DNA from: Metabacillus indicus LMG 22858
Lineage (GTDB): Bacteria; Bacillota; Bacilli; Bacillales; Bacillaceae
Length of the DNA stretch: 50,453 nucleotides
Assembly: GCF_000708755.2 (NCBI RefSeq)
Contig: NZ_JGVU02000004.1
Coordinates: 1-50,453, forward strand
Direction of reading: 5' to 3'
Shown here: positions 26,690-36,971 of the stretch, in pieces
How positions within the stretch are numbered: position 1 is the stretch's first letter
How the letters are laid out: every line of letters starts with the position of its first letter
Translations under genes and position numbers: made by a program
Notes under the pieces: generated by a model
What the model was told of the DNA's origin: nothing
The model's database searches: none
Seen by the model: the letters and a program-made list of their open reading frames with translations, nothing else

Positions 26690-27325
26690 TTAAGATGAAG
26701 TCCCCTGACAAAAAGTTTCACTTTTTAAATTTAAAACATCATATAATACTAAATTAAGCAGCGCCAGCAAACTCCCACCGAACAAAACAACTAGTCCAGG
26801 ATGTATAAGAAACAGCAGCAGGATCGACAGAATGGACGTCATGATAACCAGTAACGTTTTAAATGGTGATGTTGCACCTCTTATCAATCCGTCCTTCAAC
26901 TTCTGGAGAAGACTCCACTCATCAGGATAGGAAGAGGACACATAATTCATTCCCAAAACGATAGCCACTGTAATCAATTGAATGGTGAAAAGTTTACCAA
27001 GGGTGTGCATAGCCGAATAGCCGGCTAAGAAGAATTTTAAATCAATCACTAACAGCATTCCAAGTATCAAAAAAAGGAATGATGCGAGAATATCGCTACT
27101 CCACTCTTTTTTGTATTCCTTCCAGAAACTTGCCGCGACGTTGAACGTCTCCTGTTTGCGGGTCCATCTTCTCAGAATGCTGTACATGGCTTTGGTCGCT
27201 GGAACCCAGCCTAAAAATACGGCTCCCAAACAGGTGAAGAATATCCATAACAGATTTAGATAAGCAAGCTTTACCATCCAATCCATCAACCTGTACAGTG
27301 CATTGTCTGTGGGCATTTGCATCAT
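26690..27325 (-). CDS. YesL-like membrane protein (DUF624)
   Basis: A 211-residue protein with about five membrane helices, opening LYRLMDWMVKLAYLNLLWIF and containing GAVFLGWVPATKAMYSILRRW, typical of DUF624/YesL. Such genes accompany YesM/YesN-regulated sugar ABC operons; their function is unknown. The start overlaps the upstream lipoprotein stop (ATGA) and follows AGGAGG. Last gene of the sugar operon. Confidence 0.88.
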   Translation of the reverse strand: MMQMPTDNALYRLMDWMVKLAYLNLLWIFFTCLGAVFLGWVPATKAMYSILRRWTRKQETFNVAASFWKEYKKEWSSDILASFLFLILGMLLVIDLKFFLAGYSAMHTLGKLFTIQLITVAIVLGMNYVSSSYPDEWSLLQKLKDGLIRGATSPFKTLLVIMTSILSILLLFLIHPGLVVLFGGSLLALLNLVLYDVLNLKSETFCQGTSS

Positions 27326-27819
27326 CTATTCCTCCTGTTCAGAAGTTTTCCCAATACTTCCATGCTGTTTTCTTTTTGGTCGCTAAAACTTGGTACAAAG
27401 GCAGCTAAGGTCTGCTGATTCTGGTTATAGGGGATAAGTCCCGACGGAAGGGAGGCACCGAAATGCTCCTGTCCATTCCTATACTCCTCCACATCAGAGG
27501 CCCCGGCAAGCTTCCCCAAGGACTCAAGACCGCTTTTCCCTGCCAGACTCTTTACGTATTCTGTGTCTGCCATATACAGGTCACCGTCCTGTTGAGCTAG
27601 AAGAACGGCAAATTTTTCTTTGGAGAGCGGGTGTAGCTCTACATTTAAGGGAGAATCTGCGGCCCTTTGCTGCAGCTCTTTTTCCACTTCTTCTTGATAG
27701 GCAGGATGGATGTCAGAGAAAATAAGAATTCTCACTGCATCTTCTTTGCTTTCCTGTTGACATCCCGCCAGTAAAAGAATGAACACCATTACCAGTAAAA
27801 TAAGTCCGCAGCGTGCCAT
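27322..27819 (-). CDS. Small lipoprotein (165 residues), function unknown
   Basis: A signal peptide with lipobox LLAGC (cleavage before Cys19) is followed by a soluble domain opening DAVRILIFSDIHPAYQEEVEKEL. The strand-then-helix start and the DLYMADTEYV segment resemble lobe I of a solute-binding protein, but the length is less than half of one. It lies between the solute-binding gene and the YesL-like gene and is coupled to the latter. It may be an accessory binding or sensor lipoprotein of the transporter; that is inference. Confidence 0.75.
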   Translation of the reverse strand: MARCGLILLVMVFILLLAGCQQESKEDAVRILIFSDIHPAYQEEVEKELQQRAADSPLNVELHPLSKEKFAVLLAQQDGDLYMADTEYVKSLAGKSGLESLGKLAGASDVEEYRNGQEHFGASLPSGLIPYNQNQQTLAAFVPSFSDQKENSMEVLGKLLNRRNR

Positions 27820-27895: not shown

Positions 27896-29185
27896 TTAAT
27901 TAATCATATCCTCAAAAACTTGTTTTAGTTGCTCGTATGCCGCTTCAGGCTCTATTTGACCAAAGGACAGCTCTTCCCCAACTTGTCTGTACCCGTTGTT
28001 CTGGAAGTCTCCCCATCCTTTTGGACCGCCATTGAATGTCTGGGCATCCGGTGCTGTTTCTTCAATTAAAGTTAACTGAGACAGCTGAGATTGTTCGAAG
28101 CTTTCTTTCATGGTATCCAAGATGGTTTTGGAAACAGGTATTCCACGAGAAACGCCAAGAATTTCCGCTGCTTCTGGATCATTGATGAAGAAGTCTATGA
28201 ACTTTTGCGCTTCTTCTTTGTTCTTGGAATGTTCACTTACCGACCAGAACATCGAAGGCTTCAGATAGCCTCCAGCGTCCTTGCTCATAGGGGCTTTTAC
28301 AAGTGCAAACGTATTCGGCTGCACACTGTCATAGCTTGGAAATTGAGCAGCAAAAGATTGTTTGATCAGGACCGTATTGTTTAAAAGCAAATCCTGTTTT
28401 GGATCATATTCCTGTTCTGATACTGTTACGTCCGGTGGTGTCACCACTCCAAGCTCACGAAGCTCCTTGAACGTGTTGACCCATTCCAGCCATGTTTGTT
28501 TATCAATATTGAAGGAACCGTCCTCTTTGGAAAGATGACCTTTTCCTTTACTTAACTGATACATTTCGTAGATAGAGGCATCAAATGTGAAATCTCTAAG
28601 CACATATTTTCCTTCCTCGAGCTTTGGCTGTATTTCTTTTGCCATATTGAAAAGGTCATCCCATGTCCATCCGGATTCAGGAAGTGAAACGCCTAGTTTC
28701 TCGAAAGCGGATTTATTGTATACCATTCCATATGCATTGTTCCCCAGTGCAACCGCATATAGCTTGTCATTGTATTTCCCGGAATCCACCAGTGACTCAT
28801 CCACATCTCCGGTATTCACTTTATCCAGCTCTGCAAGCTGGTTTCGGGTCGCATATTCCTGTAAATATTGGGCATCCATCTGGATGATATCCGGTGCATT
28901 TTTGGCAGCAGATTGCGTAGCCAGCTTATCCCAGTATCCATCCCAGCCGGAATATTCCATTTCAAACGTAATATCTGGATTCTTTTTTTTATAGAGTTCC
29001 AGTACTTTAATGGTGGCATCATGTCTTTCCTGAGATCCCCACCAAACAATGCGGAGCTTGCTGCTGGAGCCCTTTTCATCACTTGAGCTAGCACTATTGC
29101 TGCTTGCACTGCACGCTGCCAGACTTACCAATAATAAAGAAGCCATCAACAATACTAGCCATTTCTTGACTTTATTTTTCCTCAA
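27896..29185 (-). CDS. Sugar ABC transporter solute-binding lipoprotein
   Basis: A family 1 solute-binding protein of about 429 residues. It has a lipoprotein signal (KNKVKKWLVLLMASLLLVS, lipobox LAAC), then SKLRIVWWGSQERHD and a two-lobe body ending in EPEAAYEQLKQVFEDM. The long open frame from 29227 includes the ribosome site AAGGGGG within it, so I place the start at the TTG 29185. It delivers a sugar or oligosaccharide to the permeases encoded at 32712-34507. It has its own promoter, with a CcpA site and the operator octamer shared with the upstream operon promoter. Confidence 0.92.
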   Translation of the reverse strand: MRKNKVKKWLVLLMASLLLVSLAACSASSNSASSSDEKGSSSKLRIVWWGSQERHDATIKVLELYKKKNPDITFEMEYSGWDGYWDKLATQSAAKNAPDIIQMDAQYLQEYATRNQLAELDKVNTGDVDESLVDSGKYNDKLYAVALGNNAYGMVYNKSAFEKLGVSLPESGWTWDDLFNMAKEIQPKLEEGKYVLRDFTFDASIYEMYQLSKGKGHLSKEDGSFNIDKQTWLEWVNTFKELRELGVVTPPDVTVSEQEYDPKQDLLLNNTVLIKQSFAAQFPSYDSVQPNTFALVKAPMSKDAGGYLKPSMFWSVSEHSKNKEEAQKFIDFFINDPEAAEILGVSRGIPVSKTILDTMKESFEQSQLSQLTLIEETAPDAQTFNGGPKGWGDFQNNGYRQVGEELSFGQIEPEAAYEQLKQVFEDMIN

Positions 29186-29226: not shown

Positions 29227-29271
29227 ATTATAAAGCGCTTTCAATCGTGTTTATATAAGAGGAATGCACAA
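29227..29271 (-). promoter_or_regulatory. Promoter of the solute-binding gene with shared operator and cre site
   Basis: The -10 box TATAAT is at 29227-29232 with no -35 box. The octamer TTGTGCAT (29264-29271) lies exactly 31 bp upstream of the -10, as it does in the promoter at 36841-36885. A near-perfect cre site, TGAAAGCGCTTTAT (29230-29243), overlaps the -10 region, so glucose should repress through CcpA. Confidence 0.75.
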
Positions 29272-29288
29272 TTCATTTTAAAAATGAA
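29272..29288. repeat. Perfect palindrome next to the operator octamer
   Basis: TTCATTTT-A-AAAATGAA, an 8-1-8 inverted repeat that abuts the octamer at 29264-29271 and lies just beyond the stop of the response-regulator gene. It lacks a U-tract, so it may be a regulator site rather than a terminator. Confidence 0.6.
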
Positions 29289-29295
29289 CAATTAT

Positions 29296-30879
29296 CTATT
29301 TCTTTAGCAGATCTGTCGGATTGACTCCCATGTATTTTTTAAAGAGGGAACTGAAATATGGCGTATTTTTGAAACCCACCTTTTCTGCAATCTCATAGAT
29401 CAGCAGATTCCCTTCCAGAATCATCTGCTTCGCCTTTTCCATTCTCACCTTGGTCAAATAATAATTAAAGGAATGCCCTGTCGCTTTCTTAAAGATTTGG
29501 CTCAAATAATTTCTGGAGATGAATACCTGCTCGCTAAGTTCATTCAGCGTGATATTCTGTTCATAATTTTCATAGATATATTGAATCATGTAATCCACGG
29601 CTTGTTTATGCCTTCTATTTTCCTTGTCATTCAGCTCCTGATATTCCTGTACATTCAAGATGATCCGGCTCAGCCATTCTTGAAACTGCTCTTCGTTCTC
29701 AAGATTCTCTATCTGTCTTTCAATCTGTTTTTCCTCAAATATCTCCGTATACTTGATTCCATTATCGTGGAGACTGAATGTCGTGATGATCCAGGCTTCT
29801 TTCCCTATCCTCTTCCAATGATAGAATAAGTACCGTTTCTCCTCTTTGCATTCTTCAACAAATTTTTTCAATACGCTGAGCGTGGATTCAAATTGGTTAT
29901 GTTTTATCGTTTCCGAAATCTCCTGGTAGAAGGAAACAGGTCTGGTAAATTCCATAGCATTCACCAGGTTCTCCATGTCTTCTGCCAATTCACTGTAACT
30001 CCTGATTCTGCGAGGATTCGCCTCTTCTTCTGCAGCCCTTAATGCTTCCTCTGTGGAAAGACTGATTTCCCGCCAATCATCCACCACTTTGCCAATGCCG
30101 ATAACGGCGGCATCAGGCAGCTCACCCAGCAGGCACTCGGCGAAACTACGTGCTTCTCCCATACAGGCTTCTGCAGCTGCTGCATGATCAAACTTTAATA
30201 ATACTGCCGTGTAGCGGATGCTTAATTCCACGAGGTCCATTCTTACAATGGACGAATCATGATTGTTCTTGAACTTTTCCACCAGGTGCTCTATATCACG
30301 ATTATCTGAATCATTTACATCAAAGGACAATACAACCACCTGATGCTTATAGTTCTCAAGCTGCAGGCTTTCTTTTTGTTCCTCTATAAACATAGGGTCT
30401 TCCATTCCCACCACGATAGATTTCATCCAAACGGATTCATATAGAGCTTGGTAATACTCCAGCTGCCTGGTGAGATTCTGGTGCAGCGTCTGGCTGCTCT
30501 GCTCCTCTTCTAATTCTTTTATGACGCCATTTAAGACGGTTTCGATGGTGTCTATACTCACCGGCTTTGATAAATAATCATGAACGTTCAGCCTCAGGGC
30601 TGTTCGTGCATATTCGAAATCGGAATACCCGCTGAGAATGATCACTTTACCTTCAAAGCCCATGTCCCGGCACTCTTGCAGCATCTCCATGCCATTCATG
30701 ATGGGCATATAGATATCGGTGATGACGATGTCTGGCTCGTGCTCCTTAATCAGCTTTAACCCTTCTTCCCCGTCCGCCCCTTCACCTGCACAGGAAACGG
30801 AGAGCCGTTCCCATGGAATCGCTTTTTTCATGATGCGCAGAATTTGCCTGTCATCATCGATTATCACTGCTTTCCACAT
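29296..30879 (-). CDS. Response regulator with AraC-type DNA-binding domain (YesN type)
   Basis: A 527-residue transcription activator. The receiver domain has phospho-acceptor Asp55 (IVITDIYMP) with acidic DDD at 8-10 and Lys in LSKPVS near 105. A long middle region follows. The AraC double helix-turn-helix fills the last 100 residues (LNELSEQVFISRNYLSQIFKK and IAEKVGFKNTPYFSSLFKKY). A TTG at 30894 is open, but ATG 30879 follows GGAGGG correctly, giving a 26-bp overlap with the kinase gene. Partner of the adjacent kinase; probably activates both promoters of this sugar operon. Confidence 0.93.
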   Translation of the reverse strand: MWKAVIIDDDRQILRIMKKAIPWERLSVSCAGEGADGEEGLKLIKEHEPDIVITDIYMPIMNGMEMLQECRDMGFEGKVIILSGYSDFEYARTALRLNVHDYLSKPVSIDTIETVLNGVIKELEEEQSSQTLHQNLTRQLEYYQALYESVWMKSIVVGMEDPMFIEEQKESLQLENYKHQVVVLSFDVNDSDNRDIEHLVEKFKNNHDSSIVRMDLVELSIRYTAVLLKFDHAAAAEACMGEARSFAECLLGELPDAAVIGIGKVVDDWREISLSTEEALRAAEEEANPRRIRSYSELAEDMENLVNAMEFTRPVSFYQEISETIKHNQFESTLSVLKKFVEECKEEKRYLFYHWKRIGKEAWIITTFSLHDNGIKYTEIFEEKQIERQIENLENEEQFQEWLSRIILNVQEYQELNDKENRRHKQAVDYMIQYIYENYEQNITLNELSEQVFISRNYLSQIFKKATGHSFNYYLTKVRMEKAKQMILEGNLLIYEIAEKVGFKNTPYFSSLFKKYMGVNPTDLLKK

Positions 30880-32623
30880 CTTCAAGCCCTCCAATCATTT
30901 CAGGAATACGTATTTTAGGTATTTTGATTACGGCAATCGTCCCTTTATCCGGTTCACTTTTTATATCAAGCGAATAATTGTTTCCAAAATAGACTTCCAA
31001 TCTCTCTTTTACATTCTTGATTCCATAGCCGCCGCTTGTTTTCTTCATCTGCTGGTTTTCTTCCTGGTTAAACCCTTTTCCATTATCCTTGATGAAAATA
31101 TATAAATGGTTATGAAGGTCACACAGCCTGATTTCGATGCGTCCATGGTCCCGGTTGTGAAAGCCATGAATGATGCTGTTCTCCACAAATGGCTGAAGCG
31201 TCAGTTTCGGTATATAGCTGCTAAGGTAAGCTTCTTCCACATGGATCGAATATTGCAGGCTTTTTCCTAATCGTATCTGCTGAATTTGAAGATAGGATTT
31301 TATATGGTGGATTTCATCATGGATTGGAATAAAGCTTTCCCCTTTGGATAAGCCGATGCGCAGCATTCTGCCGGTCAATTCCAGCACTTTGCTGATTTTT
31401 GGCTGGTCCGCCTCAATTGCCATCCAGTTCAGCTGATCGAGTGTGTTATATAAAAAGTGCGGATTAATGTTAGCCTGTAAGGTTTCGACCTCTGCCTTGC
31501 GCTTTTTCTTATATTCCGTTTCCAGGTCTCCATAAAGTTTATAGATTCTATGTATTAAACTCTTATATCGCATGAATAGGGAACCAAATTCATTATGATA
31601 ATCCTCCGGCAGGTTTGCATCTTTGTCATCAAGGGAGAAATTCTCCATCCGGTTCAATAGGATGTGAAGCGGTTTTGTGAACTGCCTGGAAATGTGATAG
31701 TTGATGAGAATCGCGATTCCGAGGGCAGCTAAACCGATGCTGATCAGGATGCCGGACAGCTGGATACTGCCCATTGCCACATCCTCCCACGGTGTGACCT
31801 CAATTAAAATCCATTCCGATCCGAAAAGCCTCGACCAGACGACAAAATGATCCTCATATTTAACGGAGCCTTCTTTATTCAAATTCACGGCGGCATTCCC
31901 TTTAAGTTCATCGAGAATGGCCAGATGGCTTCCTCCATCAAGATTCCCCACAAAGGTGATGGGTGTATCGGATGAGTCAATCAAAAGCCGGTTAACATGA
32001 GTCTGTTCATCAATCATCATGTTCTGGAATTTATCAGCTTTGATGTTAACGACGATGACGGCCCGTGCTTTCTGGTTTCCGTCATACACCTTTCTTGCAT
32101 AGCTGACAACATCAATCTTCCCCTGAAGGGAATCAATCCTGTGCTTCATCAGCCAGGAAGCATCCGCGTCCTTCAAAGGGGCAAGCGAGTTTTCGGCTGT
32201 ATACTCCTCCATTGTAAAATAATGAATCGGACCGGTCCTATCCTTCAGGGGCTGCTGCTCAAGAAAGACGTGAATCGAATCAATCAGAGGCACACTGAAA
32301 GCGATATTGAAAAAGGATTTATTGATTTGGAGAATGTCACGATAGGCCTCATATTCGTTTTGATCCCCGCGGATATATGCCTGAAGGTCACTGTTCCTTG
32401 ACATTGCCAGTGTAACCTCTTCAATGGCTTTCTTTTGCAATGCGATCTTTTCATTCTTTTCTCTTAACAGCTTCTGCTGATAATAGGTTGTATTCTCTTT
32501 CATTTGATTCAGAGAAACCGTATAGCTGACAAAGGCAATAATAAAGAGAAGAAGTGCGATAAATAGAGAAAAAGTGATAAAAAAAGCTTTGTGGATGGGA
32601 TATTGCTTGAATGGATTTTTCAT
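30854..32623 (-). CDS. Sensor histidine kinase (YesM type)
   Basis: A 589-residue membrane kinase: helix at about 13-35, an extracellular sensing domain at about 40-285, a second helix near 288-308, HAMP, then the His_kinase domain with phospho-His389 (NINPHFLYNTLDQL). The ATPase domain has VENSIIHGF and the DNGKGF box and ends with GGYGIKNVKERLEVYFG. It faces the response regulator in the same transcript. It probably senses an extracellular sugar, directly or with the binding protein. Confidence 0.93.
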   Translation of the reverse strand: MKNPFKQYPIHKAFFITFSLFIALLLFIIAFVSYTVSLNQMKENTTYYQQKLLREKNEKIALQKKAIEEVTLAMSRNSDLQAYIRGDQNEYEAYRDILQINKSFFNIAFSVPLIDSIHVFLEQQPLKDRTGPIHYFTMEEYTAENSLAPLKDADASWLMKHRIDSLQGKIDVVSYARKVYDGNQKARAVIVVNIKADKFQNMMIDEQTHVNRLLIDSSDTPITFVGNLDGGSHLAILDELKGNAAVNLNKEGSVKYEDHFVVWSRLFGSEWILIEVTPWEDVAMGSIQLSGILISIGLAALGIAILINYHISRQFTKPLHILLNRMENFSLDDKDANLPEDYHNEFGSLFMRYKSLIHRIYKLYGDLETEYKKKRKAEVETLQANINPHFLYNTLDQLNWMAIEADQPKISKVLELTGRMLRIGLSKGESFIPIHDEIHHIKSYLQIQQIRLGKSLQYSIHVEEAYLSSYIPKLTLQPFVENSIIHGFHNRDHGRIEIRLCDLHNHLYIFIKDNGKGFNQEENQQMKKTSGGYGIKNVKERLEVYFGNNYSLDIKSEPDKGTIAVIKIPKIRIPEMIGGLEDVESSDNR

Positions 32624-32669
32624 AGTTCTCCCTACTTTCTATCTCTAGTAAAGATTACCATAATAAGAA

Positions 32670-32702
32670 AGAGAAAAGGCCGCCATATCGCCTTTTCTCT
32701 CT
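32670..32702 (-). terminator. Hairpin between permease and kinase genes
   Basis: AGAGAAAAGGC (32670-32680) pairs perfectly with GCCTTTTCTCT (32690-32700). On the minus strand TTTCTTATT follows, an imperfect U-tract, suggesting partial termination that keeps regulator levels below transporter levels. Confidence 0.7.
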
Positions 32703-32711
32703 ATAAATCCC

Positions 32712-33548
32712 TTATCCTTTCAGACCTGTTGTCGCAACACCTTCCACGATATGACGCTGCGCGAAGAAGAAAATGAGTATGGCCGGAAGGATGGAGACAA
32801 GGGACATCGCAAACAGCTGTCCCCAAGGCACCGCTGAATTGGAATCGACAAACATCTTCAGTGCCAGCCCGACCGTGTATTTATCGACAGAATTGATATA
32901 AATCAAGTGGCCAAGGAAGTCATCCCAATTCCATAGAAAACAATAGATTCCTACAGTGACCAGAGGCGGCTTCATCAGAGGAAGGATGATTCTGCAATAG
33001 ATCCCAAACCACGAACATCCATCCATCTTCGCAGCTTCATCCAGCTCTTTTGGAATGCCGCGTATAAACTGAACAAGCAGGAAGATGAAAAACGACCCGC
33101 CGATTCCGCCAGCCAATAGATGCGGAACAATGAACGGCAAATACGTATTAACCCAGCCAAATGCATTGAATAGATCATACTGCGGTACAAGCGTAATCTG
33201 ACTTGGCAGCATCAGGGTAATTAATACGATGGCAAACCAGAAATTACGCAGAGGAAAATCCAATCTCGCAAAAGCGAACGCCACCAGGCTGCAGGAGATC
33301 AGTGTTGTAAACAATACAGCCAGAATAAGTACAAACGTATTCACATAGAAATGGGTGAACGTAAAGCCAGGTATCGCCGTCCATCCTTCCGTGAAATTGG
33401 AAAAAATGAGTGTGTCCGGGAAAATGCTGATGGAGTTCATCTCTTCATTGGATTTGAATGCCGCTCCCACCCACCAGATGATTGGATATACCATGAATAC
33501 ACTTATACTGATTAATACAAGATGACTGATCCAGCTCTTCTTTTTCAT
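32712..33548 (-). CDS. Sugar ABC transporter permease (YesQ/LplC type)
   Basis: A 278-residue inner-membrane permease with six helices. The EAA loop reads KELDEAAKMDGCSWFGIYCRIILPLMKP, in pieces EAAKMDG and IILPLMKP, which docks the ATPase. It ends in the usual QRHIVEGVATTGLKG. ATG overlaps the upstream permease stop (TGATG). No ATPase is encoded in this operon. Confidence 0.95.
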   Translation of the reverse strand: MKKKSWISHLVLISISVFMVYPIIWWVGAAFKSNEEMNSISIFPDTLIFSNFTEGWTAIPGFTFTHFYVNTFVLILAVLFTTLISCSLVAFAFARLDFPLRNFWFAIVLITLMLPSQITLVPQYDLFNAFGWVNTYLPFIVPHLLAGGIGGSFFIFLLVQFIRGIPKELDEAAKMDGCSWFGIYCRIILPLMKPPLVTVGIYCFLWNWDDFLGHLIYINSVDKYTVGLALKMFVDSNSAVPWGQLFAMSLVSILPAILIFFFAQRHIVEGVATTGLKG

Positions 33549-34507
33549 CAGCCTTTACCTCCTTCTGTCTGATAAAACACCCAGAACCTGGAAGTTAAAA
33601 AGATGACTGCGGTGAAAATGGCGATGATAATCAAGAGAATCCATGCCAGTGCGGACGCATAGCCCATCTCGAAACCGGCAAAAGCCTTCTGATAAAGGTA
33701 AAGGGCAAACATAAATGTAGACTCGACCGGTCCCCCTTTTGTAATAACAAATGCCTGCGTGAACATCTGGAATGATCCAATCGTTTGCAGCACCAGGTTG
33801 AAAAGGATGACCGGCGACAGCATTGGCAGAGTAATCTTGAAGAACTGTTTCACCTTGGACGCTCCGTCAATTGCAGATGCCTCATACAGCTCCGGAGAAA
33901 TCTGCTTTAAGCCTGCAAGAAAAATCACCATGGAGGAACCGAACTGCCAAACCACCAGAAGAATCAGCGTACTTAAAGCTGTATCAGGATTGCCAATCCA
34001 GTTCTCACCCTTTATGCCGAATAGTGCAAGAAATCCGTTCACCATACCTTCCCTTCCAAAGATGTTTCTCCAAAGGATTGCCACTGCAACACTCGTTCCG
34101 ATCAATGAAGGCAAATAGATCATCGTCCGGTAGATCGACATTCCTCTCATCTTTTGATTGAGGAACATCGCCATCAGCAAGGCGGAGATTAATTTAAGCG
34201 GCACGGAAATGATCACAAACAGAACGGTAATGGTCAAGGATTTATAAAAAAGCCTGTCTTCTGTAAAGATTTTTGTATAGTTCTCCACCCCGACCCAGTT
34301 CGGGGCTTCCAATAACGAATAGTCTGTAAAAGAAAAATAGAGTGATTGAACCATAGGGTAGAGCGTTAATAGAAAGAACCCAATCAGCCATGGAGAAAGA
34401 AACGCATAGCCTGCAAAAGGAGTCTCCCATCTCCTGCTTTTTTTCGACTTCAACACGATTGGCTGATGCCGGCTGGTAGTGATGACGCTTTCATTTATAG
34501 GTTTCAT
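33548..34507 (-). CDS. Sugar ABC transporter permease (YesP/LplB type)
   Basis: A 319-residue permease with about six helices. The opening helix reads FLSPWLIGFFLLTLYPMVQS and the EAA loop has EASAIDGASKVKQFFKITLP. ATG follows AGGAGG. It forms a heterodimer with the next permease. Its neighbours suggest uptake of an oligosaccharide or sugar derivative. Confidence 0.95.
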   Translation of the reverse strand: MKPINESVITTSRHQPIVLKSKKSRRWETPFAGYAFLSPWLIGFFLLTLYPMVQSLYFSFTDYSLLEAPNWVGVENYTKIFTEDRLFYKSLTITVLFVIISVPLKLISALLMAMFLNQKMRGMSIYRTMIYLPSLIGTSVAVAILWRNIFGREGMVNGFLALFGIKGENWIGNPDTALSTLILLVVWQFGSSMVIFLAGLKQISPELYEASAIDGASKVKQFFKITLPMLSPVILFNLVLQTIGSFQMFTQAFVITKGGPVESTFMFALYLYQKAFAGFEMGYASALAWILLIIIAIFTAVIFLTSRFWVFYQTEGGKG

Positions 34508-34542
34508 AAATCCTCCTTCTGTTTGACAGCGGGCAGCCGTTT

Positions 34543-35631
34543 TCAGATTTTACTTGCTTCAGGTGTCAGGAACATGGCCTGCTCTTGTGCTTTTAAACAA
34601 AGTTCCGATGCTTTGAATACATGCTCCTGCGTCATGGCCGTTTCTGTCCTGTTGATGCAGTCGAGAATCAGCTGACCAAAAAACGGGAAGCCAATTTTTC
34701 CTGCGACATCGAAATACTGCTCGCCTTGCTTATTCACTAAATACACATGGTCGGTCGTACTGGATCTTGCGACATCGACATACTTTCTGATTTCGATCGT
34801 CCCTTCCGTTCCGGTGATGAACGTTCTTCCATCCCCCCATGTGCTCAGGCCGTCGGGTGTCAGCCAGTCGACCCGGAAGTATTGAGTTGCGCCATTATCT
34901 CCTACCAGAGTGGCATCTCCATAATCTTCAAGCTCCGGGTATTCGGGGTTATTATAGTTTCCTGCTTTGCTATGCAGCACCTTGGCATCCTTACAGCCTG
35001 CATAAAATAGAAACTGTTCAATTTGATGGCTGCCGATATCACACAAAATGCCGCCATATTGCTCCTTATTGAAAAACCATGCCGGCCTGCTTGCTGCGTT
35101 CAATCGGTGCGGACCAAATCCCGTCACCTGAACGACTTTCCCAATGGCCTGCTGTTGTATCAGCTCTCCAGCGAAAACGGCCCCTTCCACGTGCAGACGC
35201 TCACTGAAATAAACCATATATTTCTGCTTCGTTTTGGCAGCCACCCTCTTTGTCTCCTCTAGTTGAGACAGGGCAGTAAACGGAGTTTTATCAGTAAAAT
35301 AATCCTTTCCGGCTTCCATCACCTTATTTCCTAATGAACTTCTCTCTGATGGGATTGCCGCAGCAGCTATCAAAGCAACCGATTCATCCTCCAGAACCTG
35401 CTCGAGCGATTGTGCCGCTTGTACGGTCGGAAAAGCCTTTATAAATGCTTCCACTTTTTCAGGATCCGGGTCATACACCCATTTCAAGGTGGCTCCCGCT
35501 TCCACCAGGCCGTTGCACATGCCATAGATATGCCCGTGATCGAGCGCTACCGCCGAGATAAAGAACTCATTCTCCCCTACAACCGGATTCGGCTTTCCTT
35601 TTGGGGCATATGTCATTCCATCCTTCACCAT
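34543..35631 (-). CDS. Gfo/Idh/MocA-family oxidoreductase, divergent
   Basis: A 362-residue NAD(P)-dependent oxidoreductase. The Rossmann region opens FFISAVALDHGHIYGMCNGL rather than the usual GxGxxG, and where the family has EKP this protein has TDKTPFT. The C-terminal alpha/beta domain shows GGILCDIGSHQIEQFLFYAG. An ATG at 35631 with AAGGGG nine bases ahead is preferred to the upstream ATG at 35664. Probably interconverts a hydroxyl and keto group on the imported sugar. Substrate unknown. Confidence 0.88.
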   Translation of the reverse strand: MVKDGMTYAPKGKPNPVVGENEFFISAVALDHGHIYGMCNGLVEAGATLKWVYDPDPEKVEAFIKAFPTVQAAQSLEQVLEDESVALIAAAAIPSERSSLGNKVMEAGKDYFTDKTPFTALSQLEETKRVAAKTKQKYMVYFSERLHVEGAVFAGELIQQQAIGKVVQVTGFGPHRLNAASRPAWFFNKEQYGGILCDIGSHQIEQFLFYAGCKDAKVLHSKAGNYNNPEYPELEDYGDATLVGDNGATQYFRVDWLTPDGLSTWGDGRTFITGTEGTIEIRKYVDVARSSTTDHVYLVNKQGEQYFDVAGKIGFPFFGQLILDCINRTETAMTQEHVFKASELCLKAQEQAMFLTPEASKI

Positions 35632-35644
35632 TTTCCCACTCCCC

Positions 35645-36802
35645 TTAATGTGTTCCTTGAACATCCAGTATCACGTTCTTCACAGTCTTTTTTGTAAAAG
35701 TGGAACCTTGTATCTTTTCCTGCAGCTTCTCATAATACAAATCCGCGTCCAACGGCAGTGTCACTGCTTCTTTCATCCAGGAGGAGAGATAAATGGCATT
35801 GCTGATTTCAAGGCCCTTCACCCCTTCTTCCCCTGGTGAGAGCAAGGGAGCGCCATTCAGGACCGCATCCGTCCAGTTCTGGATGATGCCCTTATGCTCT
35901 GTACTCTCCCCATAAACCGGCACCTCTATCTTCCAGCATTCCGGCTCCCCAAAGCCCCCCGTAAAGGTGGCATTGAACTCCCTTTCCGATTGGGTCAACC
36001 TATAAAAAAGCAGCTGATCGTTTTCGACCACGAGCTTGCCCCTGTCCCCTGCAATTTCAAAGCGATTCGTTCCAGGCGCCTCACCGGTCGAAGTAATGAA
36101 CACACCCGTCGCACCGTTCTCATACTCCACAAAAGCGGTCACTTCATCCTCCACTTCAATATCATGGTTCTTTCCTTCCTTACAGAACGCCTGAACCTTC
36201 ACCGGCATCAGTCCGGTCGTCCACTGCCACAGGTCGATCTGATGCGGGGCCTGATTCAGTAGCACACCGCCGCCTTCTCCAGACCAGGTAGCCCGCCAGT
36301 CACTAGAATCATAATAGCTTTGAGAGCGGTACCAATTTGTCACAATCCAATTGGTGCGCTTAATTTCACCAATTTCCCCAGCCTGAATCAGAGCTCTCAG
36401 CTTCTGATAAAGAGGGCTCGTCCGCTGATTGTACATCAGGCTGAACACCTTCCCGCTTTCTTTGGCAGCCTCGTTCATTTCAAGAACATTCCTTGTATAA
36501 ACTCCTGCCGGTTTTTCAAGAAGGACATGGAGACCTTTTGAAAAAGCCTTTAGTGCGAGCTCAGGATGACTGTAGTGAGGTGTTGCGATAATGACACCAT
36601 CCATGTCAGCCTCATTGAAGAATTTATCTACATCAGTGAAGCAATCGATCTCAGCTGAGCCTCTGTACAAGCTCAGCCGTTCCTCCCTGCCATCACACAC
36701 CGCAGTTACGGCAGCACCGGCAATTTCCTTATTGAGTAACCTTTGAATATGGGATGTTCCCATGTTTCCGATTCCGATGACGCCTATTTTAAATAGGTTC
36801 AT
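35645..36802 (-). CDS. Gfo/Idh/MocA-family oxidoreductase
   Basis: A 385-residue dehydrogenase: Rossmann motif IGVIGIGNMGTSHIQRLL at residues 6-23, catalytic EKPAGVYTRN, and a C-terminal domain with GGGVLLNQAPHQIDLWQW. ATG 36802 follows AGAGGTGA. First gene of the sugar operon, 13 bases before the second oxidoreductase. Pairs of these enzymes elsewhere carry out oxidation and re-reduction steps on inositols or keto-sugars; here this is an inference. Confidence 0.92.
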   Translation of the reverse strand: MNLFKIGVIGIGNMGTSHIQRLLNKEIAGAAVTAVCDGREERLSLYRGSAEIDCFTDVDKFFNEADMDGVIIATPHYSHPELALKAFSKGLHVLLEKPAGVYTRNVLEMNEAAKESGKVFSLMYNQRTSPLYQKLRALIQAGEIGEIKRTNWIVTNWYRSQSYYDSSDWRATWSGEGGGVLLNQAPHQIDLWQWTTGLMPVKVQAFCKEGKNHDIEVEDEVTAFVEYENGATGVFITSTGEAPGTNRFEIAGDRGKLVVENDQLLFYRLTQSEREFNATFTGGFGEPECWKIEVPVYGESTEHKGIIQNWTDAVLNGAPLLSPGEEGVKGLEISNAIYLSSWMKEAVTLPLDADLYYEKLQEKIQGSTFTKKTVKNVILDVQGTH

Positions 36803-36840
36803 TTCTGTTCACCTCTGTCTAGGAATTTGATCTTTTCCTA

Positions 36841-36885
36841 ATTATAGAAAGTTTTATTTTTTATGGATATGGGGGAGATGCACAA
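36841..36885 (-). promoter_or_regulatory. Promoter of the sugar operon with shared operator octamer
   Basis: TATAAT (36841-36846) has no -35 box at 16-18 bp. The octamer TTGTGCAT (36878-36885) lies exactly 31 bp upstream, as in the solute-binding gene promoter at 29227-29271. Both octamers are followed within eight bases by ATAT. Confidence 0.75.
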
Positions 36886-36971
36886 ATCGTTTTAATATTC
36901 ATCTAAGTTAAAGCAGAATGAGGACATCCCATCTTTTGCAATAGGGAAATATAACGAAAGATCTTTAATAA

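Follow-up and report, generated by a model that had tools for sequence, protein, structure and literature searches.

The DNA analysed here, called the window, is a stretch of 50,453 nucleotides of Metabacillus indicus LMG 22858 (contig NZ_JGVU02000004.1, positions 1 to 50,453 of the forward strand). Its minus strand carries an operon which specifies, in order, two oxidoreductases, two permeases, a sensor kinase and a response regulator, followed by promoter C, an extracellular solute-binding protein (SBP), a small protein and a DUF624 protein. Promoter C and promoter A, the latter upstream of the first oxidoreductase gene, share an octamer, TTGTGCAT, at the same distance from the -10 hexamer. 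This octamer is the core of a 39-bp element, TWGTTNAATWTTAAAANNAATTGTGCATYTSTCYYATAT, which is considered here as the candidate operator of the response regulator. The genes, all on the minus strand, are:

35645-36802, minus strand: Gfo/Idh/MocA-type oxidoreductase, first gene of the operon
34543-35664, minus strand: second Gfo/Idh/MocA-type oxidoreductase
33548-34507, minus strand: sugar-type ABC transporter permease A
32712-33548, minus strand: sugar-type ABC transporter permease B
30854-32623, minus strand: YesM-type sensor histidine kinase (His_kinase, HATPase_c)
29296-30894, minus strand: YesN-type response regulator with receiver (residues 10-121), GGDEF-like region (183-289) and AraC-type helix-turn-helix (HTH) domain (442-531); predicted binder of operators A and C
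27896-29185, minus strand: SBP; likely start TTG at 29183-29185 after AAGGGGG
27322-27819, minus strand: small protein with a lipoprotein-like start and no Pfam family
26690-27325, minus strand: DUF624 (YesL-type) membrane protein

An earlier reading of the sequence, referred to below as the original prediction, placed a YesM/YesN-type two-component system with an AraC output domain between the two promoters, and the Pfam domain content agrees. The kinase, whose gene adjoins that of the regulator, contains His_kinase (PF06580) and HATPase_c domains above the Pfam cut-offs; dCache_1 (30.9 bits against 45) and HAMP (20.3 against 25) fall below theirs. In the regulator Response_reg (10-121), HTH_18 (453-531) and HTH_AraC each exceed their cut-offs, and the HTH domain can be aligned both to MarA and to the solved YesN domain, a Protein Data Bank chain named YesN being among the best matches. 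On one point the original prediction is corrected: the second promoter, C, serves the SBP gene, which follows the regulator gene. The listed open reading frame (ORF) start of the SBP gene, at 29227, overlaps the -10 hexamer of this promoter. The SBP gene adjoins the regulator gene and has a predicted operator of its own; at the same time, no other SBP gene was seen with the permeases in the window operon.

The 39-bp element and its conservation

The signals recognised at the two promoters are the following:

36867-36905, minus strand: predicted operator A, 39 bp, upstream of the first oxidoreductase gene (distal half 36886-36905, proximal half 36867-36885)
36841-36846, minus strand: -10 hexamer TATAAT of promoter A, 31 bp from the octamer
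29253-29291, minus strand: predicted operator C, 39 bp, between the regulator and SBP genes (distal half 29272-29291, proximal half 29253-29271)
29227-29232, minus strand: -10 hexamer TATAAT of promoter C, 31 bp from the octamer
29230-29243, minus strand: cre-like box TGAAAGCGCTTTAT (cre, catabolite-responsive element), overlapping the -10 hexamer of promoter C and matching at 12 of 14 positions

The octamer itself occupies 29264-29271 and 36878-36885 of the minus strand, and both its coordinates and the 31-bp spacing to TATAAT agree exactly with the original prediction. The pyrimidine-rich patch and the ATAT which it described were seen downstream of the octamer at both sites. Its statement that neither promoter possesses a -35 box also holds, the best match to TTGACA at 15-19 bp spacing being 3/6 for promoter A and 4/6 for promoter C.

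Taken alone, the octamer occurs at the level expected by chance (2 copies in the window against 2.87 on shuffling), and its frequency was dropped as evidence. The pattern TTGTGCAT-N29..33-TATAAT has two matches in the whole 4.13-Mb genome, which are promoters A and C, with none for the reversed-pattern control. The slightly looser TTGTGCAT-N30..32-TATAMT is present in 88 of 397 genomes of the order; the pairing of octamer and -10 hexamer is therefore weak proof by itself, was likewise abandoned as evidence, and can be given meaning only by conservation.

Orthologues of the regulator were sought by protein searches of 60, 80, 397, 398 and 24 genomes (overlapping sets) and by a scan of named genomes. 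Six genomes had a match at E <= 1e-110: M. indicus itself, G002 (49% identity to the window regulator), G102 (55%), Sutcliffiella horikoshii KcN35-3 (G223, locus L022; 80% over the matched part), G331 (48%) and G849 (48%). All but G849 are called the first five genomes below. The element is found in the same operon in six of the six, at 13 sites, with a spacer of 31 bp at 12 of them and 32 bp at one. It lies before the first oxidoreductase gene (class A) in M. indicus, S. horikoshii and G102, before the first permease gene (class B) in G102, G002 and G331, and before the SBP gene (class C) in all of the first five genomes, which together provide 11 sites, ten with spacer 31; the single spacer of 32 is that of site C in G002. 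Operator A of the window accordingly has orthologous sites in S. horikoshii and G102, and operator C in five further genomes. Genome G849 was chosen by its regulator protein alone after the motif had been fixed, and carries sites before the permease and SBP genes, both with spacer 31. G102 (L028:3712-13256) holds three copies in one operon, one of each class.

Alignment of the 11 sites on the octamer revealed conservation from -20 to +18 with a sharp drop at both edges, which defines TWGTTNAATWTTAAAANNAATTGTGCATYTSTCYYATAT. Within it are four conserved blocks, about 10 bp apart: TWGTT, TWTTAAAA, TTGTGCAT and TCYYATAT. The octamer is the only 8-mer common to all 11 upstream regions; in 300 shuffled sets the best-shared 8-mer reached at most 7 of 11 (once) and most often 4, a comparison which ignores common descent and in which an over-extended ORF start was moved by hand for two of the 11 regions. 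The original prediction took the octamer to be the operator of the regulator. Its conservation upstream of the orthologous operons, in 6/6 genomes and with the same spacing at 12/13 sites, supports its place in a putative operator; the proposed extent did not stand, since the octamer is only the best-conserved quarter of the 39-bp element.

When the promoters of one genome are compared, 22-31 of the 39 positions of the element are identical; just upstream of it the figure is 3-10 of 25, for the spacer 1-7 of 18, and downstream of the -10 hexamer 8-17 of 30. Since the element is alike and the flanks are unlike, the element is under constraint and not the product of recent promoter duplication. 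These numbers bear on the proposal that the promoters have octamer and spacing in common by coincidence, or by ancestry without function, a reading which would agree with the chance frequency of the octamer in the window and with its pairing with a -10-like hexamer in 88 of 397 genomes. Against it, the element is conserved among promoters A, B and C with unlike flanks, and across regulators which are just 46-61% identical to each other (the M. indicus and S. horikoshii pair excepted). Such an origin would be most surprising and, judged by conservation, is close to refuted.

Sister regulators and a possible basis of specificity

A second group of regulators, 35-39% identical to that of the window, is encoded in 'yes'-type operons. 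The comparison comprised five regulators of the window family and 13 sister regulators, with that of locus L020 shown alongside and placed in neither group. The sister operons specify an SBP, both permeases, a DUF624 protein, kinase and regulator; L033 also has GH88/105-type and GH42 genes, which is the make-up of rhamnogalacturonan 'yes' clusters. Their core, TTTAACATTT, differs from TTGTGCAT but begins at the same 39 bp upstream of TATAAT.

This sister operator was first spotted by eye and afterwards tested by anchoring on the -10 hexamer. When sister promoters were selected only by TATAAT followed by a cre, all 15 that were obtained, which represent 12 of the 14 loci, had TTAAC where it was expected, and 13 of them read TTTAAC. 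Over-extended ORF starts kept the SBP promoters of L033 and L036 out of this selection; they were recovered in a search of 394 genomes for TTTAACWTTTNTTANCTA with a free gap of 16-26. The latter gave five hits, all with gap 21 and hence the same geometry (reversed control, 0), although two, those of G040 and G194, have the same sequence and belong to a single genus. Among six sister loci fetched later, five had the promoter, with an operator-promoter distance of 39 at 9/9 sites, one of which was already among the free-gap hits. Gibbs sampling on the sister upstream regions returned coding and cre sequence and did not find the operator. In loci L034, L084, L128, L129, L132 and L133 the TTTAAC element occurs at least twice, before the SBP gene and again before the DUF624 or a permease gene, with a cre after each.

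The window and sister motifs correlate most strongly when they are not shifted against each other (r 0.476); for the 16 other offsets r did not exceed 0.245. Both have TTGTT at -20 and, at -12 to -5, a run of T and then AAAA; the core and the last block differ. That sequence has diverged while geometry was kept is what would be expected of an AraC-type activator positioned for contact with RNA polymerase. The original prediction had placed the operator so as to touch the polymerase, a suggestion which the sister group backs by having another sequence at the same position.

Nine HTH positions (456, 465, 472, 477, 493, 511, 512, 525 and 530) are fixed within each group, under the thresholds applied, and distinguish one group from the other. 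Among these, 465, 511 and 512 align with DNA-contacting residues of MarA. A tentative and rather doubtful extension is a rigid layout for the YesN clade, with a four-block 39-bp operator 39 bp upstream of the -10 hexamer and a cre box at the start. In it the distal half (TTGTT...TTTTnAAAA) would be constant and the proximal half would confer specificity, TTGTGCAT perhaps being converted to TTTAACAT by very few exchanges, Ser465 to Gly (first recognition helix) and Thr511-Pro512 to Pro-Ala (second recognition helix). If true, this would make specificity readable as a code in a large family of sugar sensors, most of which is unmapped.

Regulon, proposed mechanism and operon content

The proximal half followed by a -10 hexamer at N31, with <=3 mismatches, gave 32 hits in the first five genomes and 18 with the reversed control. 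Ten of the 32 were operon sites with 0-1 mismatch and 22 were others with 2-3 mismatches. Sites with <=1 mismatch coincide exactly with operon sites: two in M. indicus, one in G002, three in G102, two in S. horikoshii and two in G331, the G002 site with spacer 32 lying outside the search pattern. When the distal half was included and the -10 hexamer omitted (<=3 mismatches), the M. indicus genome contained two sites with no mismatch, ten with three and none between, against three in total for the reversed control. The idea of a wider regulon was dropped, the 22 weaker hits being set against 18 in the control, and the hope expressed in the original prediction that the motif would lead to missing pathway enzymes was disappointed, as <=1-mismatch sites in the five genomes occur in the operon only. 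The regulon of this organism is probably the two promoters of one operon, so that the sugar will have to be identified by other means.

Two further sets of matches were set aside. An exact proximal-half match at G000:C1:612312-612330 (L089) in the M. indicus genome, identical to a sequence at G002:C1:1922643 (L098), lies in a conserved divergent intergenic region, without the distal half or a -10 hexamer at the right distance and with a TATAAT nearby on the opposite strand; no link with the operon was seen. Two matches to the octamer with ATAT, noticed by eye in G046 and G039, had no homologue of an operon protein within their 12-kb surroundings.

The confinement of the sites bears on the identity of the regulator, which rests on co-occurrence and neighbourhood. 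The operator might belong to another protein, a one-component AraC-type or global factor encoded elsewhere, and be linked to YesN through the operon only. This is unlikely: <=1-mismatch sites restricted to the operon are unlike those of a global factor, and the sister operons pair a diverged regulator with a diverged element at the same position. From the positions, their conservation and spacing, the co-occurrence with the regulator gene and the domain content, all of which are observed, we infer binding, the dimer arrangement, activation, the role of CcpA and the sugar signal. It is very probable that both sites are bound as operators by the YesN-type response regulator, whose gene lies between them, and serve activation.

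In the mechanism proposed, an extracellular sugar signal would activate the YesM-type kinase, which would lead to phosphorylation of the regulator. A regulator dimer would then occupy about 39 bp as two head-to-tail halves, each contacted by the two HTH units of one AraC-type domain; four blocks roughly one helical turn apart are fit for two such domains. With the -10 hexamer taken as -12 to -7, the operator would extend from about -71 to -33 and the octamer from -51 to -44, so placing the downstream end of the operator where the absent -35 box would be, able to contact RNA polymerase. Promoter A would drive the whole oxidoreductase-transporter-kinase-regulator operon, with positive autoregulation, and promoter C the SBP gene. 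A site fixed to the promoter and replacing the -35 box is a class II trait; here 12 of the 13 sites have a spacer of 31, and in the 11 promoters from the first five genomes the best -35 match ranges from 2 to 4 of 6.

Alternatively, the regulator might bind the element yet repress, or mainly regulate its own synthesis. S. horikoshii keeps both sites though its regulator is without the GGDEF-like middle part, which speaks in favour. The element, however, lies upstream of the -10 hexamer at the position of the -35 box, for which these promoters have so poor a match, and of five AraC-type two-component regulators in Caldicellulosiruptor bescii, three have tandem sites upstream of promoters and were read as activators (PMC8579813). 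We therefore consider this quite improbable.

Several observations weigh against an activator operator as described. The direct-repeat signal between the halves is weak, the best period being 20 (r 0.247) in the window family and 18 (r 0.348) in the sister group, because of which the dimer arrangement can only be proposed. Because the 13 sites were aligned on the octamer, its perfect conservation is in part a result of that choice, which does not apply to the flanking blocks, and one site of the 13 has spacer 32. Sister locus L131, whose regulator is more distant (42% to the search query) and whose transporters are others, is without such a promoter, and two of the 14 sister loci gave no row under the promoter filter, namely L032 (-10 hexamers TACAAT and TAAAAT) and L086 (no SBP or permease homologue). 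Finally, when searched for without a -10 hexamer, the proximal half outnumbers the reversed control in all genomes tried (M. indicus at <=2 mismatches, 137 to 40), an excess which is put down to composition.

The cre-like boxes were scored against the cre consensus, TGWAANCGNTNWCA. A 12/14 box is present at the same place in all five SBP promoters of the first five genomes, against 10/14 for promoter A; one promoter B also reaches 12/14, at another place, and the score alone is weak. On its position, not its score, the box in promoter C makes repression of the SBP gene by CcpA likely.

The permease, kinase, regulator and SBP genes stay together in 6/6 orthologue genomes, while the oxidoreductase genes have moved or are missing nearby in some. 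An oxidoreductase gene is located downstream of DUF624 in G849 (L137, 73%) and in G002 (L029, 31%), in the latter behind a xylose-isomerase-like TIM-barrel gene; this relocation indicates that the catabolic part of the operon is mobile. There are hints of a keto-sugar or inositol-like pathway; no NCBIfam model above its cut-off names a sugar for the window operon proteins. The small protein is kept behind the SBP gene in four of the five other orthologue genomes, directly after it in S. horikoshii (64%), G002 (30%), G331 (35%) and G849 (33%), and was not found in G102. The regulator of S. horikoshii (L022:10016-11227) is a 403 amino acid protein with an in-frame absence of window residues 156-274, most of the GGDEF-like middle. 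It is shortened, by natural domain loss or as a matter of assembly, yet receiver, HTH and both operator sites are retained.

Comparison with known systems

On araBAD of Escherichia coli, AraC occupies two head-to-tail half-sites, each contacted by two HTH units, the proximal one reaching the -35 region. Its half-site, GCAT followed by CATA, resembles GCATNNNNNYATA of the window element. AraC is driven by sugar bound to the protein itself, whereas the DNA-binding domain specified by the window is fused to a receiver and kinase-driven. Three-component sugar sensing assisted by an SBP is known from AraPST. Sensing of this 'three-component' type is likewise described for CuaDSR (PMC10384115).

Little is known of the DNA sites of YesM/YesN-type systems, which occur commonly in the sugar loci of Gram-positive bacteria. 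According to the portions of these reports that were covered, pneumococcal YesN has a conserved AATTC with no clear repeat and RR07 the motif CTWWWWWWAG, 39-60 nt from the start site (PMC11034029); both are YesN-type with predicted motifs, and neither resembles the window element (same source). XydR binds upstream of its targets, with no consensus obtained in the text covered (PMC3572039), and the covered text of the YesO paper does not name YesM/YesN (PMC7596534). A literature search in which subscription journals were little covered found, among the papers listed, no earlier description of the TTGTGCAT motif, which is not proof of absence.

The closest precedents are the AraC-type two-component regulators of C. 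bescii, for which tandem operators were predicted upstream of mapped promoters by comparing related genomes, and which are read as activators of sugar genes (PMC8579813). Organisms and motifs are different there, and a fixed distance to the -10 hexamer is not among the features described in the part covered (PMC8579813). The YesM/YesN systems of rhamnogalacturonan 'yes' clusters (Bacillus), represented here by the sister group, share with the window the domain make-up and the operator position relative to the -10 hexamer; they differ in the core (TTTAACATTT against TTGTGCAT), in a cre just after the -10 hexamer where that of the window overlaps it, and in their enzymes. AraC-type two-component regulators with tandem upstream sites have thus already been described (PMC8579813). 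With a fixed position operators may be predictable from the position of the promoter alone, and with two related groups having different cores at one position recognition residues may be linkable to operator bases. It is this geometry, common to two diverged groups, that merits the attention of specialists.

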